Origin: Pseudooceanicola algae | GTDB lineage: Bacteria; Pseudomonadota; Alphaproteobacteria; Rhodobacterales; Rhodobacteraceae | Assembly (NCBI RefSeq): GCF_003590145.2 | Contig: NZ_CP060436.1 | Location: forward strand, 1,212,001-1,276,000 | Length of the DNA: 64,000 bases | Direction: 5' to 3' | The notes under the pieces: model-generated | The model's database searches: none | What the model saw: only the letters and a program-made list of their open reading frames with translations | What the model was told of the DNA's origin: nothing | In this document: positions 11,667-41,382 of the stretch, one piece after another | Numbering within the stretch: position 1 is the stretch's first letter | Layout: every line of letters begins with the position of its first letter | Translations under genes and position numbers: made by a program

Positions 11667-12298
11667 CAGATCCGCACCTCCACCACCGGCACATCGGGAA
11701 CCTCTCCGGCGCGGAAGGTCGCGATGGAGGTCATGATCCGGTCGGTATCGAACCGCACAGGAACATCGAATTCGAAACCGGCGGTCACCAATTGGCCGAC
11801 ACCAGCGGCCGAGGCCAGCGTGACCAGCCCGGTTTCCGTATCGATCGTGAAATCACTACCTAAGCCCTGCTCGACACCATCGATGGTAACGCGGGTCGTG
11901 GCAGCGACAGGCTTGGTAATCGGACGCGTGTAGCTTTGTACGCCCGAGGTATAGGTCTTGCTGAGTTGGAAACAGACCGTGGCGCCATCCCCTGTGCCGA
12001 TGCTCTGATCCGTGGCGCCGACAGAGGCGCTTGGCAGACAGGATTTGTAATCCGCCCAATCCTTCCAACGGAAGGCATGCAATTGCCCCTGACGTGCTTC
12101 GAAGAACGCGATCAGCTGTTCGATATCGTCCAGCGACCGCATCGCGGCCCCTGCGTCGTAGCGGCGGCGGGAATGCTGCCAGGGGGTGTTGCGCTCTTCA
12201 TAGCCATTGGCAAGGGTCACCACCTCGGTGCGCCGCTCGGGGCCGCCCTGGGCACCGAAGGACAGGTTGGCGGGGAAACGGGTTTCGTGAAAGCTCAT
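11666..12298 (-). CDS. GTA gp12, distal tail protein (DUF2460)
   Basis: A 210-residue DUF2460 protein, the distal tail ring of GTA. The N-terminal part (FHETRFPANLSFGAQGGPER) and KDWADYKSC are typical. The ATG at 12298 has a GAGGGAT ribosome site; an earlier in-frame start would lie inside gp11. It follows gp11 after 10 bases. It caps the tail tube and binds the hub protein. Confidence 0.92.
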   Translation of the reverse strand: MSFHETRFPANLSFGAQGGPERRTEVVTLANGYEERNTPWQHSRRRYDAGAAMRSLDDIEQLIAFFEARQGQLHAFRWKDWADYKSCLPSASVGATDQSIGTGDGATVCFQLSKTYTSGVQSYTRPITKPVAATTRVTIDGVEQGLGSDFTIDTETGLVTLASAAGVGQLVTAGFEFDVPVRFDTDRIMTSIATFRAGEVPDVPVVEVRI

Positions 12299-12308
12299 TG
12301 ATCCCTCC

Positions 12309-12971
12309 TCAGGCGTTGCGTTGGCCACGGCCAAGGGCGCGGCTCATCTGCGATGCGATCTGGCTTTGCGACCGGCGGAAACCGTCGACATCGGGGGTCG
12401 AGATATTAACCACCACCTGCACGGGCTGGCCGCCGCTCTCGCTGCGCACCCCGAGCTTGCCGTCGGCACCTCGGGTCAAGGGCATGATCGCTTCGGGACC
12501 GGCTTCGCCCATCAGACCGGTACCGCCGCGCATCGGAAAGGTCGTCGGGCCCGAGACGATCCCACCCGAGGCAAAGGCCTGCACCCGGCCCTGGGAAAAA
12601 CTTCCCCCGGCGGCAAAGGGCATCAGCCCACTCATCAGCGACCCGACGCCTTGGGCAACCATGCCGCCGAAATGATCCGTGACCGGTTTCACCGCCGCCG
12701 AATAGGCCGAGTTCACCATAGAATTCGCCACGCCGCGCATCGCATCGCTGATCCGCATGCCGTCAAGGACAACACCATCCACGGCCCGACGCAGACCCCG
12801 GCTGATCCCCTGCTCCAGGATCGCCATTTCCTTGCCGGTGCTGGTCAGGGAGCCGCGCATCTTGCGCATCTCCAGGTCGAATTCCGAAACCATCCCCGCT
12901 GTGCCCTCCAGAGTCAGGTCCAGCGCATCAAGCTGGCTCTGAAGGTCGTCATAGGTCCCATGATCCGCCAT
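12309..12971 (-). CDS. GTA gp11, tape-measure protein
   Basis: A 220-residue protein with an N-terminal coiled-coil-like region (about 10-70), a hydrophobic glycine-rich middle (about 85-135), and the tail-tape segment FASGGIVSGPTTFPMRGG. It is short for a tape measure, as expected for the short RcGTA tail (about 219 residues there). The ATG at 12971 is preceded by GAGGAGAAG and overlaps the end of gp10.1 by 23 bases. It sets tail length and is probably ejected before the DNA. Confidence 0.9.
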   Translation of the reverse strand: MADHGTYDDLQSQLDALDLTLEGTAGMVSEFDLEMRKMRGSLTSTGKEMAILEQGISRGLRRAVDGVVLDGMRISDAMRGVANSMVNSAYSAAVKPVTDHFGGMVAQGVGSLMSGLMPFAAGGSFSQGRVQAFASGGIVSGPTTFPMRGGTGLMGEAGPEAIMPLTRGADGKLGVRSESGGQPVQVVVNISTPDVDGFRRSQSQIASQMSRALGRGQRNA

Positions 12972-13200
12972 CGTCTTCTCCTCCGTTGTCCGCGTCCCTG
13001 CCCCCCGTGTCGGGATAGGCCGCCAGCAATTCGTCCAATCGTTTACGTCCAAGCACGGCGCCGCTGCCCGCAGCCCCCCCGAGCAAAAGCCGCAGTTCGG
13101 CCGGGGTCAGGCGCCAGAACGCCTCGGGCGAAAGGCTCAGACCGCACATGCCGGCCTGCATCAGGGCGGGCCAGTCGACCCGGCCCGGCCCGCCGCTCAC
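12949..13200 (-). CDS. GTA gp10.1, tail assembly chaperone (rcc01693-like)
   Basis: An 83-residue protein with SLSPEAFWRLTPAELRLLLGG, the signature helix pair of the small GTA tail chaperone often missed in annotation. It starts with GTG at 13200 in the overlap GTGA with the gp10 stop. With gp10 it matches the pair of tail-assembly chaperone genes that phages place before the tape measure. No frameshift site is needed because both have their own starts. The C-terminus is Asp/Glu/Gly-rich. Confidence 0.87.
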   Translation of the reverse strand: MSGGPGRVDWPALMQAGMCGLSLSPEAFWRLTPAELRLLLGGAAGSGAVLGRKRLDELLAAYPDTGGRDADNGGEDDGGSWDL

Positions 13201-13523
13201 ATCGCCTCCTCGGAGGGCAGTTCGAAGGCACGGGTCAGCAGTTGCGCGGCTTTCTGCGCCGCCCCAAGCGGCCCGCCTTCTATCTCGGCAGTCAGCAGAT
13301 CACGCGCCCGCCCCTGCCAGCCACCGCCACGCAGGCCGGCAACGATCAGCGCCAGCACGTCGCGGGTCGAATAGCTGGCGTTCTCGAAGCGCTGCACCAA
13401 GGCGATGAGAGAGCCGTCTTCCAACCCCGCCTCCAGTTCTGCCAAGGCGCCAAGAGTCAGCTTCAGCACATGGCGCTGACCGTCGATCGCAACAGCCACC
13501 TCGCCTGTCCAGGGATTGCCCAT
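13197..13523 (-). CDS. GTA gp10, tail assembly chaperone-like GTA protein
   Basis: A 108-residue GTA family protein with LTLGALAELEAGLEDGSL and a conserved helix ending LTRAF. It is related to phage lambda gpG-type chaperones by position, immediately before gp10.1 and the tape measure. Its ATG overlaps the gp9 stop by one base (TGATG), and its stop overlaps the gp10.1 GTG start. It likely holds the tape measure during tail tube assembly. Confidence 0.88.
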   Translation of the reverse strand: MGNPWTGEVAVAIDGQRHVLKLTLGALAELEAGLEDGSLIALVQRFENASYSTRDVLALIVAGLRGGGWQGRARDLLTAEIEGGPLGAAQKAAQLLTRAFELPSEEAM

Positions 13524-13936
13524 CAGAGCGCCGTGAAGCTGAGCGCACCTGCCGACGCCATCGACAGCTCGTAGGTAGCCTCGCCATCATGGGCGCCGGA
13601 GTATTCGATGGCGGTGACCTGGAAAGGGCCTTCGATGGTGCCGAAATCCGGGATGATGACCTGAAAATCCGGTGTTTCCCCATCAAAGAAGATCTGCCGT
13701 GCGCGTTCGTCGCTGGTCGCGTCCTTGAAGACGCCGGAGCCGCTCATCGATGCCGATCGCACACCTGCGCCACCCAGCAATTCCCGCCAGCCGCCGGTAC
13801 TTTCCAGGCTGGTCACATCGACCGACCCGGCGTTGAAATTGATCCGCGTGGCGCGCAGCCCCGCGAGGGTCTCGAACACGCCGGCTCCGGTCATGTCGAC
13901 CTTGATGAGAAGGTCCTTGCCGTTCTGGGCTACCAT
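13523..13936 (-). CDS. GTA gp9, major tail tube protein
   Basis: A 137-residue major tail protein (MVAQNGKDLLIKVDMTGAG, then DVTSLESTGGWRELLGGAG), the same length as the RcGTA protein. The ATG at 13936 has GGAG eight bases upstream. A GTG three codons earlier has no ribosome site and is rejected. It polymerises into the GTA tail tube. It is separated from gp8 by 22 bases, one of the few non-overlapping junctions, and is the most abundant tail component. Confidence 0.93.
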   Translation of the reverse strand: MVAQNGKDLLIKVDMTGAGVFETLAGLRATRINFNAGSVDVTSLESTGGWRELLGGAGVRSASMSGSGVFKDATSDERARQIFFDGETPDFQVIIPDFGTIEGPFQVTAIEYSGAHDGEATYELSMASAGALSFTAL

Positions 13937-13958
13937 TTTCGTCACTCCGTCAAAAAGT

Positions 13959-14369
13959 TCAGGTATCTTCCACCAAGGCGCGGAAGCTCAGGTCGATCCG
14001 GCGCAAGGCCCCGGAATCCGTCAACTTTGCCCGCGCCTTGAGAAACGTCAGACTGATCAGCACGCCACGGCTCAGCGCCGGCAGCGGTTGGTCGAGCGCA
14101 TCGTTGACCGCGGCGGCGACCTCCTTTGCGGTCTGGAACCCGGCGGCATCGCTGACCACCGACACAGTCAGGTCATGCCGGGCCCCGTTGCCGGTCTTGT
14201 CGGACCGGTCGCGCACGCTTTCAGGACCAAGGGTCACATAGGTCGCGGGTGGGGTGCCCGTTGGGGGCGCATCGAAGATGTCCGACCCGACCAGCGCGGC
14301 GACCGAGACATTCCCGGCGATCTGCTGATAGATGGCCGCCTGCAGGGCGGCAGCGACGCTGTAGCTCAT
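13959..14369 (-). CDS. GTA gp8, tail terminator protein (DUF3168)
   Basis: A 136-residue DUF3168 protein (MSYSVAAALQAAIYQQIAG, ATYVTLGPESVRDRSDK). DUF3168 proteins cap the tail at the head-proximal end and determine its termination. The start overlaps gp7 by four bases (ATGA). Length and order match RcGTA. Confidence 0.91.
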   Translation of the reverse strand: MSYSVAAALQAAIYQQIAGNVSVAALVGSDIFDAPPTGTPPATYVTLGPESVRDRSDKTGNGARHDLTVSVVSDAAGFQTAKEVAAAVNDALDQPLPALSRGVLISLTFLKARAKLTDSGALRRIDLSFRALVEDT

Positions 14370-14701
14370 AGGTAAAGCTCCTCACGTGCTTGGCAGATCA
14401 GGAAACGGCCCTGCGGGTCCCGGTCTGCGACAGTTTCGATCACCAGCGTCTGGATTTCGTCGCGAAAGCGCTGGCCGGGCACCGGGCGGCTGGAGGCCCC
14501 GACCGGAGCACTGCGTACCGTCACCTTGTATTTCTGGACCTGGGCCGCGATACCGCCACGGCTGACGGTCGATCCGGCACCCGGAAGGACCTCTGCCCAG
14601 AGCATGCCGAGCGTGGACCAGACTTGCTGATAGCCGCCCGATCCATCCGGCACATCCTGGGATACTTCCAACATGACGGGGCGGTTCAGACGCGGGATCA
14701 T
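14366..14701 (-). CDS. GTA gp7, head-tail stopper/adaptor
   Basis: A 111-residue phage head-completion (SPP1 gp16/HK97 gp7-like) protein: MIPRLNRPVMLEVSQDVPDGSGGY, then VRSAPVGASSRPVPGQRF. It closes the capsid exit after packaging and joins the tail. The ATG overlaps the gp6 stop by four bases (ATGA). Confidence 0.89.
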   Translation of the reverse strand: MIPRLNRPVMLEVSQDVPDGSGGYQQVWSTLGMLWAEVLPGAGSTVSRGGIAAQVQKYKVTVRSAPVGASSRPVPGQRFRDEIQTLVIETVADRDPQGRFLICQAREELYL

Positions 14702-15300
14702 GACTGCCCACCGACCATGCTAAGACGCATCGGGCGATAGCGTTCGATCAACGCGGTGACGCCGAAGGGGGTGCATCCCTGACCCAGGGCCAGATCATTG
14801 CGGTACTCATAGTAATGTGCAGCCATCAACAGCACGGCCTGCGCAAGGTCCGGCGGCACATCTGACCAGACCTCGGCGCTGCCCGCGTTGATCGAAATCT
14901 CGACCCGACCATTGTCCGGGATCGTCGGCAGGCTGCCGTCTACGGATCGCAGAGCCGGACGATAGCTGTCCTCGACAATCTTGAAATCCGTACTGTCATA
15001 GGCATAGCCGACGCCCGCTTCATTCACCACGGTGACGGCAAAGATCGAGCGAACCGGAGCCAGCGGAAAGACCTGCCGGTCCGCCGACTGCCACTCCGAC
15101 AGGGACAGCACGAAATTACGTGCATACAGCGCCTGCCCGGTGCGCCCTTCGATCGACGAGATTGCCGCTCGAAGGTAGCCTTCCAGCACCTGGTTCTGCA
15201 GGGTATCCTCGGCAAAACCGGATCCCATGCGCAGGTGTTCCTTGAAGTGGTCGATCGGCAGAACCGCCGTCGGAGTCTTGTTTTCTTCGATCAATATCAT
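14698..15300 (-). CDS. GTA gp6, head-tail connector/adaptor
   Basis: A 200-residue phage connector protein (head-tail adaptor, gp6-like) with the N-terminal helices (HFKEHLRMGSGFAEDTLQN), the conserved PLAPVRSI segment and a helical C-terminal part (PPDLAQAVLLMAAHYYEYR). The ATG at 15300 follows GGAGAAAACC. An in-frame opening 132 bases earlier has no ribosome site. It forms a ring below the portal. There are 180 bases between it and the capsid stop codon. Confidence 0.9.
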   Translation of the reverse strand: MILIEENKTPTAVLPIDHFKEHLRMGSGFAEDTLQNQVLEGYLRAAISSIEGRTGQALYARNFVLSLSEWQSADRQVFPLAPVRSIFAVTVVNEAGVGYAYDSTDFKIVEDSYRPALRSVDGSLPTIPDNGRVEISINAGSAEVWSDVPPDLAQAVLLMAAHYYEYRNDLALGQGCTPFGVTALIERYRPMRLSMVGGQS

Positions 15301-15480
15301 GGTTTTCTCCGATGATCGCGACGGTTTCGGCTGGCCCCGCAGGGCGGCGCGAACGACTTTTCCCTCTCCGGCGCGTGTCTCCCAACGTTGCTCGGACGGA
15401 GGGAGCTGCTGGACAACGCATGCAGAAGACACGCGCCCGGTGAGGCCGAAGACCCGGCCCCACCGATCCGCCGCTCGCTG

Positions 15481-16665
15481 TTACGATGCGGCGAATTTCA
15501 GCAGCTTGATCGCGGCGAAATCGCTGACGTCACCGCCCACCCGCTTGGTGGCATAGAAAAGCACATGCGGCTTGGCACTGAAGGGATCACGCAGGATGCG
15601 CAGGTCCGGACGCTCGGCCACCGTATAGCCGGCATGGAAATCCCCAAAGGCGATCGCATAGCTGCCGCTCGAAATGTCGGGCATGTCCTCGGCGATCAGT
15701 ACCGGATAGCCCATCAGGCGCGCAGGTTCACCAGCCGCCAGCCCATCGGACCACAGGAAGCGACCGTCGCCATCCTTCAGCTTGCGCACCGCACCGGCGG
15801 TCTTCGAATTCATCACGAAGGTGCCATTTGCGCGGTAACGGGCACCAAGCGCATAGACCAGATCGACGATCGCATCGGCTGGCTCGGAGGGATCGAAACC
15901 ACCCGAGGTGCCGGTGGCGATATACCCGAGGTTATCCCAGCTCCAGGAGCTTTCAGCGACCTTGGTGTGGGTCAGAAAACCCATCGGTTTGTCGGCACCA
16001 TCCCCGTTGACGAAGGCATCGGCCTCAGCGCGGGCAAACTTGTCGGCGATGCGTTCGGCCAGCCAGCTTTCGATGTCGAAGGCGCTGTCGTCAAGCAGGC
16101 GCTGCGAGGCCTTCGGCAGGGCCGAAAGTTCATGCAACGGGATCGAGATCCGGTCGACACCGGGCGTCGAGGTTTCCGAGACCGAGGTTTCGTCGTCCCA
16201 ACCCGCTCCGACGTCGGAGGTATCGACCAGCACGTCATAGGAGGTCGCATTGACGTTCACTACATTGGCGACCTGGCGGATCGAGGCGGCGGAGTTCATC
16301 ACCGACTGGATCGTGTCCGAAGTCACCGGATCCACCAGGTAGCCACCGTCGCCGGTCAGACTGGCCAGTGCCTTGCCTTCCAGGTCAAGGCTGCGCAGGC
16401 CGTCGTCATCGCCGGTGCGCACATAGGCGGCAAAGGCCTTCTGATGGGGTGCCTCGACTTCGGCAGCATTGGCAAGCGCCGGGCGGGCGGCGGTCAGGGA
16501 TTTGCGGTCAAGCATGGTAAATCGGCTTTCCTGTTGTTGCAGTCGTTCCTGAATGTCGGACTGGAAGTCCTTGAACTCCCTCATGAAACCCGTCATTGCG
16601 GATTTCACCTCAGCCATCGGAGACACAATCTCCCCGTGCCGAGAACTCTTCTCGGTCAATCCCAT
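15481..16665 (-). CDS. GTA gp5, major capsid protein (HK97 fold)
   Basis: A 394-residue HK97-type major capsid protein. The N-terminal about 70 residues are helical and coiled coil-like (DFQSDIQERLQQQESRF) and are the scaffold (delta) domain likely removed by gp4. The mature part begins near residue 70-110 (GDGGYLVDPVTSDTI). The core has the family segments SIRQVANVV, ALPKASQRLLDDSAFDIE and KLKDGDGRFLW. The ATG at 16665 follows AAGGAG. It assembles the small oblate GTA head that holds about 4 kb of DNA in RcGTA. Confidence 0.95.
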   Translation of the reverse strand: MGLTEKSSRHGEIVSPMAEVKSAMTGFMREFKDFQSDIQERLQQQESRFTMLDRKSLTAARPALANAAEVEAPHQKAFAAYVRTGDDDGLRSLDLEGKALASLTGDGGYLVDPVTSDTIQSVMNSAASIRQVANVVNVNATSYDVLVDTSDVGAGWDDETSVSETSTPGVDRISIPLHELSALPKASQRLLDDSAFDIESWLAERIADKFARAEADAFVNGDGADKPMGFLTHTKVAESSWSWDNLGYIATGTSGGFDPSEPADAIVDLVYALGARYRANGTFVMNSKTAGAVRKLKDGDGRFLWSDGLAAGEPARLMGYPVLIAEDMPDISSGSYAIAFGDFHAGYTVAERPDLRILRDPFSAKPHVLFYATKRVGGDVSDFAAIKLLKFAAS

Positions 16666-16697
16666 CGACTTCTCCTTGGATGGTAGGTGAGAGCGCC

Positions 16698-17261
16698 CTA
16701 GCGGGAGCCCAGTTCGGCGCCCGCGTCCCGCAGGGCAGCCGCCAGTTCGCGCAGGTCGTCGTCCAGGGGGTCGACCCCGGACTTGGCAGCGACCCGCGCA
16801 CTTGGCAGCATCGGGAAGGTCACAAGCGACACCTCCCAAAGCTCCAGTTCCGTCAGGAGCCGACGGCCCCCGGTGTCCTTCGCCGCGCGCTTGGTGCGAT
16901 AGCCGATCGACAGCCCGTCGATGGCCCCGGCCTGGATCAGCGCGGCGGCCTCGCGGCCCTTTGCGACGGCCTCCAGCAGACGCCCCTTGACCCAAAGGCC
17001 GGTGCCGTCCTCGCGGATCTCGTCCCAGACACCGATGGGCTGCGCCGGATCGTGCTGCCATAGCATCTTGATCCGCCGCCCCTGCGCCGCCAACCCGGCC
17101 AGCGAGGCCGCATAGGCCCCGGTCTGGACAACATCGCCGCCCTGATCCGTGGCGCCAAAGCGCGAGGCGTAGCCTTCGATCACCATGCCGTCTTCCTTGA
17201 CGGTCAGATCCTCGTCGAAGCGGCAGAACTTCTGTTCCAGCCCGTTCATCGTTTCTTGCAT
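16698..17261 (-). CDS. GTA gp4, prohead protease
   Basis: A 187-residue HK97-family prohead serine protease (peptidase U35). Likely catalytic residues are the His in IKMLWQHDPAQPIG and the Ser in GAIDGLSIGYRTK, followed by LELWEVSLVTFPMLPSA. It trims the capsid N-terminal domain. The ATG at 17261 follows GAGGAGACC; a second ATG four codons in is possible. There are 32 bases to the capsid gene. Confidence 0.92.
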   Translation of the reverse strand: MQETMNGLEQKFCRFDEDLTVKEDGMVIEGYASRFGATDQGGDVVQTGAYAASLAGLAAQGRRIKMLWQHDPAQPIGVWDEIREDGTGLWVKGRLLEAVAKGREAAALIQAGAIDGLSIGYRTKRAAKDTGGRRLLTELELWEVSLVTFPMLPSARVAAKSGVDPLDDDLRELAAALRDAGAELGSR

Positions 17262-31775: not shown

Positions 31776-32360
31776 TCACTCCACGCGCATTGCCTCGGTC
31801 TCGATGGTGATCTGCACCTCGTCGCCGACCAGCCCGTTGTCGACGCCGTAGCGCATGCCGAAGTCGCTGCGCCTGACGCTGCCGCGCGCCGACAGGCCCA
31901 GCACAAAGCGCTTGTGGCCAAAGGGATAGGCCTCGGCCTTGTTCAGCGTCACCTCCAGGGTCAGCGGTCTGCTTTCTCCCAGCAGGGTCAGGGTGCCCTC
32001 GACCGTGCCGGAGTTGTCACCCTTCGGGGTGCCGCCATCGGCGGTGAAGGTCATCACCGGATGCGCGGAGACGTTCAGGAAATCGCCGCTGCGCAGGTGC
32101 TGGTCGCGCGCCTCGTTCAAGGTGATCACGGTGTCAGTCCTGACCCGGACTTTCAGGTCCGACAGCGCCTGCGTGTCCATGTCGTAGGTGAAAGCGCCCT
32201 CGATCCCGCTGAACAGGCCGAGCCTGCCGGCATACCCGGCGTGGGACACCAGAAAGGACACGGTAGTATGGCTCGGGTCGAGCTCGTAGCGGGCGGGGTC
32301 CGCCCGAGAGGGCGCCGCCAGCAGGACCAGGGAAGCCGAAAGCAGGAGGGTCTGTCGCAT
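31776..32360 (-). CDS. yceI: YceI-family periplasmic lipid-binding protein
   Basis: A 194-residue exported YceI protein. The signal peptide (about 1-20, LLLSASLVLLAAPSRA) is followed by a lipocalin-like beta-barrel with YELDPSHTTVSFLVSHAGY, TVEGTLTLLGESRPLTLEV and VGDEVQITIETEA. The family binds long isoprenoids or amides in the periplasm and is induced by stress in some species; the ligand here is unknown. The ATG at 32360 is at the signal peptide start. It is inside the proposed island, oriented opposite to the seven-gene operon. Confidence 0.9.
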   Translation of the reverse strand: MRQTLLLSASLVLLAAPSRADPARYELDPSHTTVSFLVSHAGYAGRLGLFSGIEGAFTYDMDTQALSDLKVRVRTDTVITLNEARDQHLRSGDFLNVSAHPVMTFTADGGTPKGDNSGTVEGTLTLLGESRPLTLEVTLNKAEAYPFGHKRFVLGLSARGSVRRSDFGMRYGVDNGLVGDEVQITIETEAMRVE

Positions 32361-32658
32361 GTCCACTTCGCTCGCAGTGAGGGTACCGTACGAACGATAG
32401 CACGCGGGCGGCGCGGTACGAAGGGGTGTGAAAGCCACGGCTTCCTTTGCATGATCGTGCTGGTCCGTCCCCTCCTTGGCCGTTCCGGGCCGAGGCTTCC
32501 ATGGCTCACCGCCTTCCACAACCAGATCCGTTCACCCGACAGTATCTCGGAAATGTGACCCGCGCGGTTTCCGCGGATTGACGCTCCGTCGCATCCATGG
32601 CCCGCCATGCGACCCCGAAACGCTTGACAGCGTGACCGCAAAGCTCACTTCATCTCCT
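32361..32658. other. 298-base divergent region between yceI and the island operon
   Basis: It should hold divergent promoters for yceI (-) and the CDP-alcohol phosphatidyltransferase operon (+). No ribosome site is evident before 32659 and no TPP or other riboswitch consensus was found. A slightly earlier GTG at 32632 is an alternative start. Confidence 0.4.
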
Positions 32659-33435
32659 ATGGCAGGTTTCGCATATTTCCGTCTTCGCGCCCTCGACGGG
32701 CCGTTCTCCCGAGCGTTGGGATCGCCGCCGCGCAGCTTTCTGGCGGCGGTTCTGCTGTGTGTGCCTGCCGTGGGGCTGGGCGCGGCGGTCCTTTGCGCCA
32801 CTGCGCCGACGCTCGCCGCAAACCTCGCCATTGCGCTGTTTCTGACCGCCTCGGCGCTGACCTACCCAGCCCTGCGCGGCACCTACCCCCATCCGGCTTT
32901 AGGCGCCTGCAACCTGATCACCACCCTGCGCATGGCCATGGTCTGCGTGTTGGGCGCAGCGGTCGCGCAGCCCGTGCCGCATGCCGTCCCGCTGTTCACA
33001 CTGGCAATGGTCGCGCTGGCCCTCGATGGGGTCGACGGCTGGCTGGCGCGGCGGTCCGGTTTGGTGTCCGGCTTCGGCGCCCGCTTCGACATGGAGGTCG
33101 ACGCCGCCCTTGCAGCCGTCCTCGCTCTGCTCCTGATCCGCATGGACGACGGAGGCATTGGGCCGACCGCCGCGCTGATGGTGCTGGGCGCGGCGCGCTA
33201 CGCCTTCGTCGCGGCGGCGATGATGCTGCCCTGGCTGCGCCGCCCCCTGCCCTTCAGCCAGGCACGGCGCGCGATCTGCGTGGTCCAGATCGCCGCGCTG
33301 TCGCTGTTGCTGCTGGTTGGCCCGGCTAGCCTTGCCGGCCGGATCGGCCTGACGCTCGCGGCGGCCTTGATCCTGTGGTCCTTCGGGCGCGACATCCTCT
33401 GGCTGTACCGTCGGCGCGGGCTGCACTGCGCGTGA
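32659..33435 (+). CDS. CDP-alcohol phosphatidyltransferase family protein
   Basis: A 258-residue membrane protein with at least six hydrophobic segments. It carries the complete CDP-alcohol phosphotransferase signature D-x2-D-G-x2-A-R-x8-G-x3-D-x3-D, from Asp123 to Asp148 (LDGVDGWLARR to ARFDMEVDA). Such enzymes transfer a phosphatidyl (or other phospho-alcohol) group from a CDP donor to an acceptor alcohol such as glycerol 3-phosphate, inositol or serine. The acceptor is unknown. First gene of a seven-gene operon; the next gene overlaps in GTGA. GC content is higher than in the core genes. The start lacks a good ribosome site. Confidence 0.85.
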   Translation: MAGFAYFRLRALDGPFSRALGSPPRSFLAAVLLCVPAVGLGAAVLCATAPTLAANLAIALFLTASALTYPALRGTYPHPALGACNLITTLRMAMVCVLGAAVAQPVPHAVPLFTLAMVALALDGVDGWLARRSGLVSGFGARFDMEVDAALAAVLALLLIRMDDGGIGPTAALMVLGAARYAFVAAAMMLPWLRRPLPFSQARRAICVVQIAALSLLLLVGPASLAGRIGLTLAAALILWSFGRDILWLYRRRGLHCA

Positions 33436-35069
33436 GGGACAAGCGCAAACGGGACCTGGAGATGGCCCTCGGCGCAGTGGCGCTGTTTGGCGTGCTCGCC
33501 CTTCCGGGACGCCCCTCTCAATTGGTGCCCGGTGCGATCTGGGTCGTGCCCCTGGAACTGCCCGCCCTGCTGGGGATGATGCTGGCACTTGGCGCCTGGC
33601 CCCGGATCGCCCGGGTCGTCGCCTTGTGTCTGGTGGCCCTGCTGACCCTTCTGACCGCGCTCAAGGTGGCGGACCTCGTGACCTACGAGGCCTTCTCGCG
33701 CCCCTTCAACCCGGTTGTCGATCTGTTCATGTTTCCCGCTGCAATGAACCTGCTGACCGGCAGCCTGGGGCGGCCTCTGGCCCTTGTGGTCGCCGTGCTC
33801 GCGGGGCTGGCCGTGGGGCTGACCGGCTGGCTGATCTACCGCGCCCTGCGCGCGTGGTGCCTGCCCTCCGCGCGCCCTGGTGCCCGGATCGCAGCCTCGG
33901 TCGTGGCGCTGTTCGCCCTGGGATGGACGGCGCTGGCCTCCGGGCAAACGGTCGGCCTGACGGCGCGGGATCTCGACCCGCCGGGCGACGCAATGACCAC
34001 GCGGCTGGCGCTGGCCCAGGCCCGGCGCGGCGCGGATGCCGCGCGAAAGCTGGCAGCGTACCGCGTCGCGGCGGCGCAGGATCCCTATGCCCGGGGCGAG
34101 ACCCTGTTCGATCTGCTGGAGGGCCGGGACGTCGTGATCGTCTTCGTGGAAAGCTACGGCCGCACCAGTTTCGACAATCCGCTCTACCGCCCCACCCACG
34201 TGCCGACCCTGCAGGCGGCCGAGGACGCGCTGCGCGACAGCGGCCTTGCCATGGCAAGCGGCTGGCTGACCGCGCCGATCGCGGGCGGGCAAAGCTGGCT
34301 CGCCCATGGGACGCTGGCCTCGGGTCTGGCGACGGCGGACCAGGCACGCTACGCCGCCATGCTGGCCAGCCCCCGACAGACGCTGTTCCACCTCGCACGC
34401 GGGGCGGGGTACCGCACCGCCGCCGTGATGCCGGCGATCACCCTGCCCTGGCCCGAGGGGCCGATGCTGGGGTTCGAGACGATCCTGGACGCCGCCGACC
34501 TGCACTATGCCGGGCAGCCCTTCAATTGGGTCACCATGCCCGATCAGTATACGCTCGACGCCTATCCCGACCTGCTGGGGGACGATCCGCGGCCCGATTT
34601 CCTGCAGATCGCCCTGATCTCGTCGCACGCGCCCTGGGTGCCGGTGCCGCAGATGGTCGATTGGGCCAGGGTGGGCGATGGCAGGATCTTTGACCGCTGG
34701 GCGACCTCGGGCGATCCGCCCCGGGTGGTCTGGAAAGACCGCGACCGGGTGCGTGACCAGTATCGCCAGGCCATCGACTACGCGCTGCAGGCCGCCTTCT
34801 CCTTCGCCGCGCGGCAGGGCGGCGCAAACGCCCCGCTGATGATCGTACTGGGCGACCATCCCCCGGCGGCCTTCGTGTCCCAGATCGACGGCAAGGACGT
34901 ACCGGTCCACATCATCGGGCCGCCCGAGGTGCTGGCGCGGCTGGACGCCTGGGGCCTGAAGGAGGGGCTTGTCCCGGACGAGACAGCACCTGTCTGGCCC
35001 ATGGAGGACTTCCGCGACCGCTTCATCACAGCCTACACCTCGACCCTCGCCGCGCAGGACGGGACATGA
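33432..35069 (+). CDS. Membrane sulfatase-like (alkaline phosphatase superfamily) protein
   Basis: A 545-residue protein. About five membrane segments lie in residues 10-170. The C-terminal alkaline phosphatase-superfamily domain has VIVFVESYGRTSF (Glu240), AGGQSWLAHGTLASG (possible nucleophile serine), LISSHAPWVPVP and VLGDHPP (metal-binding Asp/His). Related proteins transfer phosphoglycerol or phosphoethanolamine to envelope glycans, or hydrolyse sulfate or phosphate esters; I cannot choose. It starts with GTG at 33432, overlapping the preceding stop (GTGA), and ends in ATGA overlap with the next gene. Confidence 0.82.
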   Translation: MRDKRKRDLEMALGAVALFGVLALPGRPSQLVPGAIWVVPLELPALLGMMLALGAWPRIARVVALCLVALLTLLTALKVADLVTYEAFSRPFNPVVDLFMFPAAMNLLTGSLGRPLALVVAVLAGLAVGLTGWLIYRALRAWCLPSARPGARIAASVVALFALGWTALASGQTVGLTARDLDPPGDAMTTRLALAQARRGADAARKLAAYRVAAAQDPYARGETLFDLLEGRDVVIVFVESYGRTSFDNPLYRPTHVPTLQAAEDALRDSGLAMASGWLTAPIAGGQSWLAHGTLASGLATADQARYAAMLASPRQTLFHLARGAGYRTAAVMPAITLPWPEGPMLGFETILDAADLHYAGQPFNWVTMPDQYTLDAYPDLLGDDPRPDFLQIALISSHAPWVPVPQMVDWARVGDGRIFDRWATSGDPPRVVWKDRDRVRDQYRQAIDYALQAAFSFAARQGGANAPLMIVLGDHPPAAFVSQIDGKDVPVHIIGPPEVLARLDAWGLKEGLVPDETAPVWPMEDFRDRFITAYTSTLAAQDGT

Positions 35070-36043
35070 GCGCACGGCTCAAGACCCTGGCGCGGTTTGC
35101 CATGTCGGCGGCGCTGGTCGCGGGGGTACTTGTGGCCCTTGATGCCGGCGCAGCCTTGAAAAAGCTGTCCTCGGCGGATCCGCTGTGGCTCTTCGTCACG
35201 GCCCTTCTGCTGAGCGCGCAGACCTGGGCCATGGCCCTGCGCTGGCGGCTGGTGGCCGCGCGTCTCGGGGTGCAGATCGGGGCGGTGCGGGCGGTGACGG
35301 AATACTACCTTGCCCAAGCGGTGAACATGACCCTGCCCGGCGGGGTGCTGGGCGATGTCACCCGCGCCGCACGCAGCCGCGAAAGCGCCGGGCTTGGCCC
35401 CGCGGCCCTGGCCGTGGCGCTCGAGCGGTTGGCAGGGCAGATCGCCATGGGGACCATCCTTGGCTTGGGGTTCCTGCTCGCGCTGGTACTGCCGGGCGGC
35501 ATGGCCTGGCCCCGGCCCATGGCGACGGGGATCAGCGCCGGCGTGCTGGTCGCCCTGTTGGCTGGCGTCGCCCTGCACCACATGGCACTGCGAAAGCCCG
35601 GCACCCGCGCGGCCCGCTTCGCCGCTGCCCTGTCGCGCGCGCTGTTCGCGCCGGACATCCGGGGACGCCAGATCGCCCTCGGACTGCTTGTCGCGGGGCT
35701 GAACCTCGCCGCCTTTGCCGCGGCCGCGCGGGCCACCGGTACCACGCTGCCGCCCGAGGCCTGGGTCACCCTGATCCCGCTGGTGCTGACGGCCATGGTC
35801 ATCCCACTGTCCATCGGCGGCTGGGGCTGGCGCGAGGGGGCGGCGGCGGCGTTGTTCCCCATTGCCGGCGCCTCCGCCGAAGCGGGTGTCGCCGCCGCGC
35901 TGGCGTTCGGGCTGGTGCTTCTGGGGATCAGCCTGCCGGGCGCCCTGGTGCCCCTGCTGGCGCGACGCCGCTTGCCTGCGCCGGATCCCCCCCTAAGTTC
36001 AAAGACAGAAAAATTGTCCCGTTGTCAGGAGACCCCGCCGTGA
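35066..36043 (+). CDS. Lysylphosphatidylglycerol synthase/flippase-type membrane protein (UPF0104-like)
   Basis: A 325-residue protein with about eight hydrophobic segments. It matches the transmembrane domain of LPG synthase (TLPGGVLGDVTRAARSRESAG is the family signature region; PLSIGGWGWREG occurs near 250). It lacks the soluble aminoacyl-transfer domain of MprF, so a flippase role is more likely than lysine transfer. It starts in ATGA overlap at 35066. The flanking enzyme genes suggest it moves a lipid product across the inner membrane; this is inference. Confidence 0.83.
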   Translation: MSARLKTLARFAMSAALVAGVLVALDAGAALKKLSSADPLWLFVTALLLSAQTWAMALRWRLVAARLGVQIGAVRAVTEYYLAQAVNMTLPGGVLGDVTRAARSRESAGLGPAALAVALERLAGQIAMGTILGLGFLLALVLPGGMAWPRPMATGISAGVLVALLAGVALHHMALRKPGTRAARFAAALSRALFAPDIRGRQIALGLLVAGLNLAAFAAAARATGTTLPPEAWVTLIPLVLTAMVIPLSIGGWGWREGAAAALFPIAGASAEAGVAAALAFGLVLLGISLPGALVPLLARRRLPAPDPPLSSKTEKLSRCQETPP

Positions 36044-37050
36044 CCCATGCCAGTCCCGCGTACCGCCCCACCCTTACCCGCCGCCGCCTGCTGGGCACCG
36101 GCCTTGGCGCCGCGGTGCTGAGCCTTGGCGGGGGCCTGGCCCGTGCCCAAACCCGCGAGGTCGCGCTGCAACTTTCGTGGCTGCATTCGGTGCAGTTCGG
36201 CGGCAGTTATATCGCCAGGGACAAGGGCTATTGGACGGACCAGGGCCTGTCCGTCGCGTTGAACCCCGGCGGGCCGAACGCGCCGGTGGAGCCGCCCGTG
36301 GTGGCAGGCAACGCGCTGGTGGGCATTTCCGCCGCCGATTACACCGCCGCCGCCGTGGCGCAGGGCGCACCGTTCAAGATCATCGGCGTGGCGATGCAGA
36401 AGAACCCCTTCGTCATCGCCTCGCTTCCGGACAACCCGGTGAACGAACCGAAGGACCTCGAAGGCAAGCGCATCGGCATGGCGGTTGCGAACACCCCGGT
36501 GCTGCAAGCCCTGTGCAGTCTGAACGACGTCGACATCGACGCGATCGAAGTGGTGCCGACCCAATACGATGCCGCCCCGTTAGTGGCCGGCCAGGTCGAT
36601 TGCCTGCTCTGCTGGGCGACGGACCTGCCCGTGGCCATGGCAATCCAGGGGATCGACAGCGTCACCATGCTGATGGCCGACCACGGGTACGCCGTCCATT
36701 CGCAGACCTACATCGCCACGCAGGACAGCATCGCCAACCGCCGCGACGACCTGATCGCCCTGCTGCGGGGCGAGGTTATGGGCTGGAACGACTACCACGC
36801 CGACCCCGCCGCCGCCGCCGCCCTGACGGTCGGAATGTTCCCCGATGCCGGCCTAGACCTGCAGACCCAGGAACTGCAGGCCGAACGCCAGGTGCCGCTG
36901 ATGTTCTCGGACCTGACCGAGGAACACGGCTTCGGCTGGTTCACGGACGAAACTGTGGCCGCCAACGTCGAGACCCTCGCCCTGCTGGGGCGCGACGTCA
37001 GCCCCGACATGTGGGACCGGTCTCTGCTGCAGGACGTGCATGACGGGTAA
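36040..37050 (+). CDS. ABC transporter substrate-binding protein, NMT1/THI5-like, Tat-exported
   Basis: A 336-residue periplasmic binding protein. The N-terminus contains a twin-arginine signal (LTRRRLLGTGLGAAVLSLGG, cleavage after LARAQ). The mature protein matches the NMT1/THI5 fold (LQLSWLHSVQFGGSYIARDK, LNPGGPNAPVEPPVVAGNAL). Members bind pyrimidines, sulfonates, nitrate, riboflavin or other small solutes; no ligand motif allows a choice. It starts with GTG in GTGA overlap, with AGGAG upstream. The ATPase gene overlaps its end by 11 bases. Confidence 0.88.
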   Translation: MTHASPAYRPTLTRRRLLGTGLGAAVLSLGGGLARAQTREVALQLSWLHSVQFGGSYIARDKGYWTDQGLSVALNPGGPNAPVEPPVVAGNALVGISAADYTAAAVAQGAPFKIIGVAMQKNPFVIASLPDNPVNEPKDLEGKRIGMAVANTPVLQALCSLNDVDIDAIEVVPTQYDAAPLVAGQVDCLLCWATDLPVAMAIQGIDSVTMLMADHGYAVHSQTYIATQDSIANRRDDLIALLRGEVMGWNDYHADPAAAAALTVGMFPDAGLDLQTQELQAERQVPLMFSDLTEEHGFGWFTDETVAANVETLALLGRDVSPDMWDRSLLQDVHDG

Positions 37051-37840
37051 GGACCACCCCCGTGGCGATGTCGTCTGCGACGGCGTATCGCACCGTTTCG
37101 ACAGCCGGAACGGCGCGGTCGAGGCCCTGGGGCAGATCGACGTGACGCTGGAGGGCGGGCAGACAACCGCCCTGGTCGGCCCCTCGGGCTGCGGCAAATC
37201 CACCCTGCTGCGCCTGATCGCGGGACTGGACAGCCCCACCACGGGAACGGTGCACATCGGGGACGAGAGCCCCCGCGACCTGCGCCGCCGGGGCGCCTTG
37301 GCGATGGCGTTCCAGGATGCGTCCCTGCTGCCCTGGCGCACGTTGCGCAGCAACGTCGCGCTTGCCCTCGGCCTGTCGAGGCGCAGCCCCGATCCGGCGG
37401 CTGTGGACGCCATGATTGCCCGCGTCGGCCTTTCTGGGTTCGAGGCGCGGCGACCGGCTGAGCTGTCCGGCGGCATGCGCCAGCGCGCCGCCATCGCCCG
37501 CTGCCTCGTGGGGCGGCCCGAGCTGTTGCTGCTGGACGAGCCTTTCGGCGCGGTGGACGAGCTGACCCGCCGCCGCCTCAACCACGACCTACCGGCCCTT
37601 TGGCGGGAACGGGGCACCACGGCCCTGCTGGTCACCCATTCGATCACCGAGGCGGTGCTTCTTGCCGACCGCATCCTGGTCATGTCGCCCCGCCCGGCCC
37701 GGATCGTCGCCGACTTCGCGGTAAAGCTGCCCCGGCGCGAGGACCCCGGCACCGAGGACACCGACGCCGTCCGCACCCTGCGCGCCGAGGTCTCTGCCGC
37801 CCTGCTCGAAAGCGCCGACCAGCGGGTTGCCGCACAGTGA
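37040..37840 (+). CDS. ABC transporter ATP-binding protein (SsuB/TauB/NMT1-type)
   Basis: A 266-residue ATPase with Walker A GPSGCGKST (47-55), Q-loop (AFQDASLLPWR), signature LSGGMRQR, Walker B LLLLDEPFG and the H-loop VTHSITEAV. The LLPWR/EAVLLADRILVMSPRP pattern is typical of nitrate/sulfonate/taurine-type importers. It couples ATP hydrolysis to the adjacent permease. It overlaps the binding protein gene by 11 bases, and its stop overlaps the permease start (TGATG). Confidence 0.92.
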   Translation: MTGKDHPRGDVVCDGVSHRFDSRNGAVEALGQIDVTLEGGQTTALVGPSGCGKSTLLRLIAGLDSPTTGTVHIGDESPRDLRRRGALAMAFQDASLLPWRTLRSNVALALGLSRRSPDPAAVDAMIARVGLSGFEARRPAELSGGMRQRAAIARCLVGRPELLLLDEPFGAVDELTRRRLNHDLPALWRERGTTALLVTHSITEAVLLADRILVMSPRPARIVADFAVKLPRREDPGTEDTDAVRTLRAEVSAALLESADQRVAAQ

Positions 37841-39405
37841 TGCGCCGTTTCGCGACCTTCCCGGCGGTTAAGGCCCTGCCAGGCCTCCTCGCCGTTGTCG
37901 TCCTGTGGGAGATCGCCGCGCGGCTGAACGCCGGCAGCTTCGTCCTGGCCGGTCCGGGGGCGATTGCGGTCTACCTCTGGGACAATGCCGGGCTGCTGGG
38001 GCGGGCTTTGGCGGCCAGCCTTCACAGTGCCGCATGGGGGTTTTTATGGGGGAACCTGGCCGCCATGGCGCTTGCGGTTACGGTGGTGCTGGTGCCGCGC
38101 AGCGAGCGGCTGATCGGGACACTGGCGCTGATCGTCTTCTGCCTGCCACTGGTGGCGACGGGCCCGATCCTGCGGGTGCTGTTCGGCACCGGAGCGGGGC
38201 CGCAGATCACCCTTGCCGCGCTGGCCGTCTATTACACCACCTTCCTGCCGCTGGTCGTGGGGCTGCGCGCGGTGCCGCGGGGGTGGCTTGATCTTGTGGA
38301 AATCCACGGGCGGGGGCGGTTGTCGCAGATGATCCATGTCCGCGCGCCCGCTGCCTTGCCCTACCTGCTGGCCGGGTTCCAGATCGCCGCCCCCGCGGCG
38401 GTGCTGGGCGCGCTGGTGGGCGAGTTCACCGGGGCCGAGCGGGGCCTGGGCGTTCTGACCGTGCGCGCGATGAGGGCGATGGACGTCAATGCGACCTGGG
38501 CCGTGGCCATCCTGGCAGCCACCGTTTCGATCGCGGCCTACGGGGCGCTTGGCCTGCTCGCCCGGCGCCTCAGCCGCGCGGGCCCGGCGCTGCTTCTGGC
38601 GCCTCCCGGCGTGCCCACGGACCGGTCGCTCTGGTCCGGCGGCCTGTCGATGGCAGGCGTCGGGCTGGTGGCGGTTGTCCTGTGGCAAGGGGTCATGGAC
38701 CTTTTCGATCTCAACACCTTCTTCGCCAAGCGACCCGGCGACGTCTTCGCCTTCCTCTTCACCGGGCCCGACGCTGCGGCCAACCGGGCCGTGCTGTTCG
38801 CGGCCTGCGGCGAGACCCTGACCTTTGCCTTGCCCGGCTACCTGGTCGGCCTTTTGCTGGGGGCGGCACTGGCCTGCGCCATCGTACTGGTGCCCGGGCT
38901 GGCCCACACGGCCCTGCCCGTATCGGTTGCGCTGCGCTCCATCCCGATCATCACGACGGCCCCGCTGATCGTGCTGGCCCTGGGGCGGGGCGCGACGGGC
39001 ACCATCACCATCGTCGCCGTGATGATCTTTTTCCCCACCCTCGTGACCTGCCTTCAGGGCCTGCGCCAGACGCCGGGCCAGATCATCGACATTTTCGACA
39101 CCTATGCCGCCGGGCGATGGCGCGTGCTGACCCTGGCGCGGCTTCCGGCCATGCTGCCCGCGTTCTTCGCCTCGGCCCGCATGGCGATCCCGGCCGCGAT
39201 CCTGGCCGTGACCACCGCCGAATGGCTGGCGACCGGCAAGGGGATCGGCGCGCTGATGGCGCTTACCGCGTCAACCTCGGCCTACGGGATGCTTTGGAGC
39301 GCCGTCCTTCTGGTCGCGCTTGCCGCGGCCCTGGCCTATGGCGCCGTGGCGCGGATCGAGGCGCGGGTGCTGGCCGTCTTCGCGCCGGAACAGGGGGCGC
39401 GATGA
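37840..39405 (+). CDS. Fused double ABC permease (two BPD_transp_1 domains)
   Basis: A 521-residue protein made of two homologous halves, each about 250 residues with about six membrane segments. Cytoplasmic EAA-type loops occur in both: around DLVEIHGRGRLSQMIHVRAP in the first half and IDIFDTYAAGRWRVLTLARL in the second. In most systems the two permease copies are separate or a homodimer; here they are one chain. It starts one base into the ATPase stop. It forms the importer with the neighbouring binding protein and ATPase. Confidence 0.88.
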   Translation: MRRFATFPAVKALPGLLAVVVLWEIAARLNAGSFVLAGPGAIAVYLWDNAGLLGRALAASLHSAAWGFLWGNLAAMALAVTVVLVPRSERLIGTLALIVFCLPLVATGPILRVLFGTGAGPQITLAALAVYYTTFLPLVVGLRAVPRGWLDLVEIHGRGRLSQMIHVRAPAALPYLLAGFQIAAPAAVLGALVGEFTGAERGLGVLTVRAMRAMDVNATWAVAILAATVSIAAYGALGLLARRLSRAGPALLLAPPGVPTDRSLWSGGLSMAGVGLVAVVLWQGVMDLFDLNTFFAKRPGDVFAFLFTGPDAAANRAVLFAACGETLTFALPGYLVGLLLGAALACAIVLVPGLAHTALPVSVALRSIPIITTAPLIVLALGRGATGTITIVAVMIFFPTLVTCLQGLRQTPGQIIDIFDTYAAGRWRVLTLARLPAMLPAFFASARMAIPAAILAVTTAEWLATGKGIGALMALTASTSAYGMLWSAVLLVALAAALAYGAVARIEARVLAVFAPEQGAR

Positions 39406-40469
39406 CACGGCTGTCGATCACCTTTGCAATTCCCGGCGACCGATACCAACGCACCGGCGGATACATCTACGAATCCCGCGTTCTCGACGCCCTGCGGGAC
39501 CTAGGCCACGACGTCGAACACCTTGAATTGCCTGACGGCTTCCCCAACCCCACCCCGACAGAGCTGGCCGAGACCCGCGCCCTGCTGCGCGCCGTGTCCC
39601 CCGGGCGGATCCTGCTGCTGGACGGTTTCCTGCCCGGCTGCCTTGGGCCCGAGGGACTGACCGGGATTGAAGCGCCAATGGTCCCCATCATCCACCACCC
39701 CCTGGGCCTCGAGACCGGTCTGGACCCCGCCCGGGCCAGGCAGTTGCTGCGCGATGAAGCCGCAGGTCTGCGCCTGGTCCGACGCATCGTGGTGCCCAGC
39801 CCTCACACCGGCCTGCTGCTGACGCGGGACTTCGGAATCGACAGCGCGCTGATCGACATGGCCGCGCCGGGTTTCGACGCGCCCGAAGCGGCGCCCCGCC
39901 CGATCTCGCCACCCCTGATCCTGTCGGTGGGTCTGCTGGCACAGCGCAAGGGCCATGACGTCCTGCTGCGCGCGCTGGCCCAACTGGGCGATCTCGACTG
40001 GCAGGCCCGCATCGTCGGAGGTGTCCACGACCCTGCGCTGGCCAAGGCCCTGCACGGCCAGGCGCAAGACCCGGCGCTGCGCGGCCGTGTCACCTTCACC
40101 GGCCTGCTGAGCGACATCGAGGTCGATCGCGCCTACGCCGAGGCGTCCCTGTTTGCCCTCGCCACCCGTTTCGAGGGCTACGGGATCGTCTTCGGCGAGG
40201 CGATGCTGCGCGGCCTGCCCATCGTGACCTGCCGCGCCGGCGCCGTCCCCGACACTGTGGGCGAGGCCGCCGACCTGGTGCCCCCCGACGATCCCGAGGC
40301 CTTCGCCGCCGCCCTGCGCCGCAGTCTCACGGATCCCGCACACCGCGCCCGTCGCGCCCACGCATCACGCACTGTCGGGGCCGCACTGCCCTTGTGGCAG
40401 GACACCGCCCGCAGCATCGCGCAAACGCTGGCCGTGGCGCAGGGCGATGCAGGCGGCAAATCGGTTTGA
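39402..40469 (+). CDS. Glycosyltransferase family 4-like protein
   Basis: A 355-residue GT-B glycosyltransferase. The C-terminal donor-binding half has ILSVGLLAQRKGHDVLLRAL and the E-x7-E motif in TRFEGYGIVFGEAMLRGLP. The N-terminal part has the Gly-rich TGGYIYESRVLDAL. There are no membrane segments, so it acts at the cytosolic side. It starts in ATGA overlap with the permease gene, last in the operon. Donor and acceptor are unknown; the neighbours suggest a lipid acceptor. Confidence 0.87.
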   Translation: MTRLSITFAIPGDRYQRTGGYIYESRVLDALRDLGHDVEHLELPDGFPNPTPTELAETRALLRAVSPGRILLLDGFLPGCLGPEGLTGIEAPMVPIIHHPLGLETGLDPARARQLLRDEAAGLRLVRRIVVPSPHTGLLLTRDFGIDSALIDMAAPGFDAPEAAPRPISPPLILSVGLLAQRKGHDVLLRALAQLGDLDWQARIVGGVHDPALAKALHGQAQDPALRGRVTFTGLLSDIEVDRAYAEASLFALATRFEGYGIVFGEAMLRGLPIVTCRAGAVPDTVGEAADLVPPDDPEAFAAALRRSLTDPAHRARRAHASRTVGAALPLWQDTARSIAQTLAVAQGDAGGKSV

Positions 40470-40902
40470 CCGACTGAGAAGCGGTGGCCCAAAACGACAA
40501 GCTGCGAACCTCGTTCTTGACGTCTGCTTTCATGACACCTTCACGCATTTGGAAGCGCCATGAGACAAGTGCGTCTCGGGGGCGTCACGGATTGTCGACG
40601 GGGACATCACGGGGGCATCCATCCACGCACAAATCGTTTGATGGCCGAGGCTCGCCTTTCCCCGAGTGGACTTAACCGAAACCTCCCGGGTCGGGTAGTC
40701 GAGCGCGGTGTAACCGTTCGAGACGGCAATGCGGACCTGGCGTGCGGCGACCAGAGCCACCCTGAAAACTCTGACGAAGAGCGGGCCGCACCCTGCGGCG
40801 AAGTCACCGACACGGCCGATCGGCATCCGACAGGTTCAGAAGGCCAACGAAAGTCTTCGTGATGCGATTGGAGTGTTTCACGGCGAGGATCGCCCTGTGC
40901 CT
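40470..40902. other. Decayed intergenic region left of the integrase remnant
   Basis: No intact gene. A - strand opening of 98 codons (40530-40826) has no recognised motif. The lower GC content compared with the operon and the direct repeat GGGG-CG/ACA-TCACGG near 40580-40612 fit a deteriorated mobile-element end. Confidence 0.4.
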
Positions 40903-41166
40903 CACAGATCGCACTACACCGCGGCCAAGACGTTGGCCGATGCGGGTGTCGACATTTCCGACATTCAAGCGGTGGCTGGGCACAAGACACTTGAAACGGC
41001 TCAAAAACATGCCTCTGGCGCAGACCAGAAGAATGCATCCAAATGCGATCAGCAGAAGCGGAACCGAAACAAGGAGAAATCCGAAAAGCGCAAGACAAAC
41101 TGCGAAACCGTTCCGGGACCGCAGTGGCAAGCTAGGCAGACTCGAGAGAATGATCAAAATTCCAAT
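40903..41166 (+). pseudogene. Tyrosine recombinase (integrase) C-terminal remnant
   Basis: The frame reads HYTAAKTLADAGVDISDIQ, then AVAGHKTLETAQKHASGADQ, the C-terminal catalytic region of prophage/island integrases. The N-terminal and core domains are missing, the arginine of the LRHT box is gone (HRSHYT), and the position of the catalytic Tyr (usually QKYASGADQ type) is His. It abuts the 3' end of tRNA-Leu, the usual place of an island integrase. It is probably not functional. Confidence 0.72.
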
Positions 41167-41167
41167 G

Positions 41168-41251
41168 TGGTGCGGGTGAAGGGACTCGAACCCCCACGCC
41201 ATAGGCGCCAGAACCTAAATCTGGTGCGTCTACCAATTCCGCCACACCCGC
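41168..41251 (-). tRNA. tRNA-Leu, anticodon TAG
   Basis: The reverse strand reads GCGGGTG acceptor arm, D-arm GCGGAATTGGTAGACGC, anticodon stem-loop CCAGATTTAGGTTCTGG (anticodon TAG), a variable arm and T-arm GGGGGTTCGAGTCCC, then CACCCGC and encoded CCA. The long variable arm fits a class II leucine tRNA. It reads CUA and other CUN codons. Its 3' end faces the integrase remnant. Confidence 0.95.
41170..41191 (+). repeat. tRNA-Leu 3' end, candidate att site (right)
   Basis: This is the segment of the tRNA gene matched 20/22 by 31511-31532 in the same orientation. It serves as the functional tRNA 3' end here. Confidence 0.45.
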
Positions 41252-41382
41252 AACACGCCGTGGGTCTGTCGCCCGCCGCGCAAGGCGGTTAGTAGCAAAG
41301 CCCCCGCCCCGATAGAAGCCATAATCGGCAGGCAGGACGCATAACTTCCGGCATGAGCCGGCAAAGGGCCGAAAGGCCCTGT

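Follow-up and report, generated by a model that had tools for sequence, protein, structure and literature searches.

What is the role of a periplasmic solute importer in an operon of lipid headgroup enzymes? The question is raised by seven genes on the plus strand of Pseudooceanicola algae (Rhodobacteraceae; contig NZ_CP060436.1), located at positions 32659-40469 of the 64,000-nt stretch that we analysed (the window, forward-strand positions 1,212,001 to 1,276,000). In order, they encode a CDP-alcohol phosphatidyltransferase (CDP), a sulfatase-family membrane protein (SULF), a flippase-like protein (FLIP), the binding protein, ATPase and permease of an NMT1/THI5-type ABC importer, and a GT4 glycosyltransferase. 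Each frame is open from its start with a single stop, and the coordinates confirmed the junction overlaps of 4, 4, 4, 11, 1 and 4 nt noticed in an original prediction made from the sequence. That prediction placed importer and lipid enzymes in one pathway. Comparison among relatives showed that the operon is composed of two units, an output core (CDP, SULF and FLIP) and a supply unit (the THI5-type importer and GT4). The prediction is upheld in part: the importer is functionally tied to the envelope enzymes, as had been proposed, but its closest partner is GT4, with which it occurs without the core in two genomes of a 149-genome panel.

To follow the operon among relatives, we searched the panel (149 genomes, each representing one genus of the family) for SULF and found a good homologue in 20, with two further matches being weak (E values of 4e-6 and 9e-4), while a scan of named genomes returned 80 SULF loci. 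The window, family loci and named-genome loci together made up 96 de-duplicated loci, which were compared using profiles built for this analysis; all were found via SULF, and locus frequencies are therefore conditional on it. All seven genes recurred with unchanged order and strand in 31 of the 96 loci, for example in Ruegeria, Tateyamaria, Salipiger, Oceaniglobus and on plasmid pDSHI05 of Dinoroseobacter shibae, indicating that the set recurs as a neighbourhood and is no chance insertion. Across loci the CDP-SULF-FLIP core was constant, while the remaining genes were exchanged. Supply was provided by a THI5-type importer in 43 loci, by a GTP-derived pathway in 14 and by a MalE-like sugar importer in 12, and no locus combined two of these types; the other 27, many of them on short contigs, had none of the three. 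These labels change at least 13 times along the SULF tree, indicating that supply modules were exchanged repeatedly. GT4 accompanied the THI5-type importer and the GTP pathway, and not the MalE-like importer. There is good evidence that supply, GT4 and output make up a modular system whose parts can be exchanged.

The alternative supply genes may point to the chemistry that the importer replaces. Pathway loci encode a PTPS-like enzyme, a Zn-type dehydrogenase, a RibD C-terminal reductase and a methyltransferase, often with inositol-monophosphatase-like and FkbM genes; some also carry GTP cyclohydrolase II, and the pathway, where complete, starts with this enzyme and a RibD-type reductase. In 24 aligned PTPS-like sequences the catalytic Cys is absent and HGA replaces HGH, with the loss of one zinc His, and the enzyme scored 28.5 bits against the QueD model (cut-off 89), below the level of a canonical PTPS/QueD. 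Because these catalytic residues are lost, we rejected canonical pterin synthesis as a firm label.

We counted orthologues in the panel at thresholds of E ≤ 1e-30 for GT4, fixed beforehand, and ≥70% identity for the importer. GT4 was found in 26 of the 149 genomes, the importer in 14 and the pathway methyltransferase in 12. The union of the latter two comprised 25 genomes, all of them GT4-positive, and the 26th GT4 genome (G147, 73% complete) carries an importer permease fragment at a contig edge beside GT4. Possession of GT4 therefore coincides with possession of importer or pathway in 25 of 25 genomes plus G147 by its fragment (p = 1.6e-27, 149 genomes; this and the other panel p-values ignore shared descent). 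All 14 importer genomes carry GT4 and 12 also carry the core, so that the importer genes are not always found alone, and all 20 core genomes, G147 included, have one supply option. The importer is thus a partner of GT4 rather than of the lipid enzymes, and is interchangeable with the GTP-derived pathway. Two loci outside the class, L160 and L166, combine pathway, GT4, CDP, SULF and OpgG (L160 also FLIP), and Rhizobium sp. SL42 has an annotated CDP-FkbM-FLIP-SULF-RibA-dehydrogenase-PTPS-GT4-methyltransferase-RibD set; from these sets, the window's importer version looks like a derived replacement of the pathway. Also outside the class, GT4 has a long frame of 633-645 aa (L160 8723-10660; L162 9786-11687) with no separate methyltransferase frame called, and GT4 and methyltransferase may be fused there.

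The output side is exchanged as well. Using as query an OpgH-like GT2 glucan synthase found near GT4 in some loci, we found that the 26 GT4 genomes divide into 17 with the core and 9 with this GT2, with none having both (p = 3.2e-7). The nine core-less genomes matched above a wide score gap at 44-65% identity, compared with none of the 17 core genomes; a fragmentary match in G008 scored low. In a phylum-wide sample of other families, 18 pathway-methyltransferase genomes comprised 10 with SULF, 8 with GT2 and none with both, where GT2 was not searched genome-wide in G176 and six of the GT2 genomes rest on the locus together with SULF absence. The GT2 of L051 exceeded the cut-offs of two MdoH models (486 vs 419 and 453 vs 328 bits), and the OpgH-like GT2 is a paralogue separate from the OpgH beside OpgG. 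Periplasmic glucan synthesis is also linked to the core itself: OpgG was present in 19 of 20 core genomes versus 51 of 129 others (p = 2.5e-6, likewise ignoring shared descent), the core has OpgG/OpgH at its flank in many Rhodobacterales loci, these genes adjoin pathway or SULF in distant families and other classes, and in D. shibae they (as mdoG/mdoH) form a divergent unit with cytochrome b561 beside the operon. These patterns suggest that the final acceptor is likely to be an OpgGH-type glucan of the periplasm and that the end product is less likely to be a free glycolipid; the original prediction had the imported molecule built into an envelope glycolipid or phospholipid.

The account that fits most of these observations, which we hold tentatively and at somewhat less than an even chance, is that a ring compound, either taken up or synthesised, receives a sugar, is coupled to a lipid and flipped, and ends up on periplasmic glucan. 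The THI5-type importer would bring in a heteroaromatic (pyrimidine- or pteridine-like) compound, which relatives would make from GTP by means of GTP cyclohydrolase II, the RibD-C reductase, the divergent PTPS-fold enzyme, the Zn-type dehydrogenase and methyltransferases. GT4, the hub, would attach a sugar to it; the CDP-alcohol phosphatidyltransferase would join a phospholipid to the alcohol formed in this way or to a second, partner alcohol; with help from the flippase-like protein the lipid-linked product would cross the inner membrane; and the LtaS-like phosphotransferase would pass the phospho-headgroup to an acceptor. The most probable acceptor is periplasmic glucan of the OpgG/OpgH type, and the reaction would resemble the transfer of phosphoglycerol by E. 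coli OpgB. A bolder version, which we consider doubtful, would have the operon define a new class of envelope compound, a GTP-derived heteroaromatic glycoside carried by phospholipid onto periplasmic glucans, kept in its reduced state by cytochrome b561 and light-induced as a defence against singlet oxygen, with some species importing the ring. Should this hold, a new type of headgroup would be present on periplasmic glucans and on the lipids that donate to them, its route being defined genetically and including both an importer and an alternative by biosynthesis; the swap patterns by themselves are a strong lead for pathway discovery, open to test in a culturable marine model.

Several observations weigh against the glucan-transfer account. 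One genome (G063) has importer and pathway together, unlinked, and two Rhodobacterales loci, the only such cases, hold both core and OpgH-like GT2 (L051 6031-7728; L053 5990-7714), so the exclusion between outputs is strong and not absolute. None of the three panel genomes carrying the MalE-like importer has GT4, yet each has the core, indicating that the core is able to function in the absence of GT4. The altered active site of the PTPS-like enzymes means that the pathway product cannot be named a pterin. The OpgG genes of the window's own genome lie far from the operon, and one core genome (G132) has no OpgG. What the comparison demonstrates is the gene set and its conservation, the exchange of supply and output modules, the fold and active-site class of the phosphotransferase and a link to glucan at the level of genomes; the compound's identity, the GT4 substrate, flipping, the acceptor and the role in light or singlet oxygen are inferred.

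The main competing explanation, which we regard as rather unlikely, would make the product a free phosphoglycolipid of the envelope, or else decorated lipopolysaccharide or lipid A, with the LtaS-like enzyme decorating a glycolipid and the glucan not serving as acceptor. The lipid A enzymes EptA and MCR-1 are among the close folds of SULF, a CDP-alcohol phosphatidyltransferase with a flippase-like protein would suit a lipid product, and the core genome without OpgG agrees with it. Against these stand the frequency of OpgG in core genomes, the presence of OpgGH beside the core in several families and in a further class, and the nature of the alternative output, which is an OpgH-type glucan synthase in its own right.

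The importer's binding protein (gene 4, 36040-37050, 336 aa, with an RR-type signal; PF09084, 142 bits vs a cut-off of 20.5) is followed by the ATPase (gene 5, 37040-37840, 266 aa; ABC_tran PF00005) and by a permease with two fused BPD_transp_1 domains (gene 6, 37840-39405, 521 aa; PF00528 in two stretches), and then by GT4 (gene 7, 39402-40469, 355 aa; PF13692/PF00534, Glycos_transf_1), all on the plus strand. The binding protein is unusually conserved, with orthologues 69-79% identical (mean column identity 78%) versus about 50% for SULF. Its AlphaFold2 (AF2) model is nearest to a thiamin-bound binding protein, the formylaminopyrimidine (FAMP) protein ThiY and Thi5, followed by TauA and the PQQ-binding PqqT, while the closest NCBIfam models for the ATPase (SsuB/TauB/NtrCD) all remained under cut-off. 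Given this fold and a replaced pathway that starts from GTP cyclohydrolase II, a GTP-derived pyrimidine or pteridine is an economical guess for the ligand. The family and these nearest structures would also suit ordinary uptake of a vitamin, thiamine precursor or sulfonate-type solute, merely co-transcribed with unrelated envelope genes. We consider that improbable: the importer stands in for an entire pathway next to the same GT4, GT4 is found in every importer genome of the panel, no thiamine pyrophosphate (TPP) or flavin mononucleotide (FMN) riboswitch was found upstream of the importer in the window, L041 or L121, and thiamine uptake explains neither the exclusion from the GTP pathway nor the GT4 linkage. 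The window's genome encodes two further THI5-type binding proteins of 32-34% identity (G000:C1:1452460-1453401 and 2988528-2989394), the first followed by its own ABC ATPase gene. Among viral contigs the operon's binding protein had no relative.

The chemistry of the core was examined from its enzymes. All seven operon proteins matched Pfam above the curated cut-off. The label "sulfatase-like" for gene 2 was not upheld by its fold and metal site, which are those of an LtaS/EptA phosphotransferase. None reached a curated NCBIfam equivalog cut-off, and the substrate is therefore not readable from family names. Gene 1 (CDP, 32659-33435, plus strand, 258 aa; CDP-OH_P_transf PF01066, 52 bits) has an intact D(x)2DG(x)2AR(x)8G(x)3D(x)3D motif (D123, D126, D144 and D148), and D123/G124/D126/G127/A130/R131/G140/D144/D148 are invariant in 75 of 75 homologues; it scored 25 and 21 bits against the PgsA and PssA models, below NCBIfam cut-offs of 109 and 107. 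Gene 3 (FLIP, 35066-36043, plus strand, 325 aa) is a UPF0104-type LPG_synthase_TM membrane protein (PF03706, 101 bits) that may flip the lipid across the inner membrane.

Gene 2 (SULF, 33432-35069, plus strand, 545 aa; Pfam Sulfatase) was modelled with AF2 from 12 sequences (pLDDT 88.8), giving a predicted topology of five N-terminal helices (2-173) followed by an extracytoplasmic-type sulfatase-fold domain (234-534). Residues E240, S288, D475 and H476, predicted metal and nucleophile residues, are invariant in the 12 homologues at the expected strand and helix ends, and coincide with the positions of the LtaS metal ligands and nucleophile. The best Foldseek matches were LtaP, MCR-1 and LtaS; over Foldseek and VIA-align together, LtaS/LtaP, EptA, MCR-1 and GacH led, with LtaS best (Z 21.1, 3.6 Å over 269 residues) at about 10-11% identity, and full-length EptA aligned over 416 residues. 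We rejected arylsulfatase activity, as the C/S-x-P-S-R motif is absent and LtaS-class structures outrank sulfatases. The fold and conserved site residues make it more likely that gene 2 transfers a phospho-headgroup from lipid than that it cleaves a sulfate ester. That SULF instead polymerises phospho-alcohol units into a teichoic-acid-like polymer from the lipid of the CDP-alcohol enzyme seems to us a slim prospect: LtaS is its best fold match and a dedicated phosphatidyltransferase adjoins it, but at about 11% identity to LtaS, and with EptA, MCR and GacH nearly equal, the fold cannot separate a polymerase from a single transfer, and the glucan linkage would be left unexplained.

Regulation offers a possible physiological setting. 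A promoter-like motif, CTTGAC-N14-GCTCACTT (32623..32650, plus strand), ends near the gene 1 start codon, with CTTGAC at 32623-32628, 36 nt upstream of that codon. CTTGA[CAG] occurs about 34-36 nt before the start in 34 of 79 gene-1 orthologues compared with 18 of 1254 other genes of the same loci (p = 1.5e-32), and when all loci were recounted, no b561 or YceI gene was preceded by it. This enrichment suggests a single conserved promoter at the operon head with a leaderless or very short-leader transcript. The spacing does not fit the RpoHII promoter described in PMC3441632, and no sigma factor is therefore named; the RpoE/ChrR-type motif TGATC-N-TAAG was not enriched upstream of gene 1 (4/82), and a sigma-70/terminator scan gave no excess.

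In a D. shibae microarray, Dshi_4166-4170 (integral membrane protein, transferase, sulfatase and cytochrome b561) were up in light/dark versus the dark or non-starved control and were assigned to the singlet-oxygen response, and a strain cured of the replicon that carries them lost the light benefit in starvation survival (PMC4373377). With old and new locus tags matched by order and product names, the induced genes correspond to the first three operon genes and the divergent cytochrome b561. The replicon concerned is 72 kb. The operon may have a role in light or singlet-oxygen protection; the many other genes on the cured replicon, such as LPOR, and the lack of reaction-centre genes in the window's genome count against it. 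We rejected phototrophy as a common denominator, given its weak association with the core (13/20 versus 47/129 other genomes, p = 0.026) and its absence from the window's genome.

Around the operon, a divergent YceI-family gene (31776..32438, minus strand; 113 bits, under the equivalog cut-off of 232) is kept in a subset of relatives, cytochrome b561 occupying the same place in most others, and is a probable accessory. In about 40% of loci an endonuclease/exonuclease/phosphatase-family gene, a possible further member, lies upstream of gene 1 near YceI or b561 (e.g. L024 7055-7801). The G+C content of the operon is 0.708 versus 0.631 in the rest of the window, and the core-gene excess (+0.078) is above the mean of relatives (+0.025). 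Just 3' of the operon, a phage integrase C-terminus fragment (40729-41292) overlaps a tRNA-Leu(tag) gene (41168-41251) and is an old integration scar. Recent insertion of the operon at this site, as the G+C excess and integrase remnant could indicate, was rejected as unlikely because loci of Oceaniglobus and Jannaschia have the same junction between YceI and gene 1. Elsewhere in the window, a gene-transfer-agent-like cluster (6407-17261, minus strand) includes a 1276-aa protein (6407-10237) matching GTA_TIM, Phage-tail_3 and Rcc01698_C.

Compared with known systems, the gene set is apparently undescribed yet widespread; as the original prediction supposed, the open-licence literature yielded no description of it. 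The same seven-gene operon, with b561 and mdoH/mdoG, lies within Dshi_4160-4172 on pDSHI05, described as induced genes only, with no pathway proposed (PMC4373377). Joining GTP-derived ring chemistry to a glycosyltransferase would resemble the cyanobacterial pterin glycosides (PMC13259868), from which the present cluster differs in a PTPS-like enzyme without canonical catalytic residues and in its lipid and glucan enzymes. The binding protein shares family and fold with ThiY/Thi5/RibY-type importers and PqqT, but, unlike these, the window's importer is tied to GT4, alternates with a GTP pathway, has a fused double permease and showed no riboswitch. With LtaS/LtaP and EptA/MCR-1/GacH, SULF shares its fold, a helical membrane part with an extracytoplasmic domain and the metal-site residues, while differing in its Gram-negative origin, its glucan link and an identity of about 10%; its predicted nucleophile is Ser288, in place of the Thr used by LtaS and EptA. 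E. coli OpgB and S. meliloti CgmB transfer phosphoglycerol to periplasmic glucans. Substitution of these osmoregulated periplasmic glucans (OPG) draws on phospholipids (PMC3818809). Against NCBIfam, gene 2 matched no model at E ≤ 0.001, the presence of an OpgB model in the library being unchecked. Like OpgB and CgmB, gene 2 encodes an alkaline-phosphatase-superfamily membrane enzyme with an expected phospholipid donor and a genomic link to OpgGH glucans; unlike them, it belongs to an operon with its own phosphatidyltransferase, flippase-like protein, supply module and GT4.

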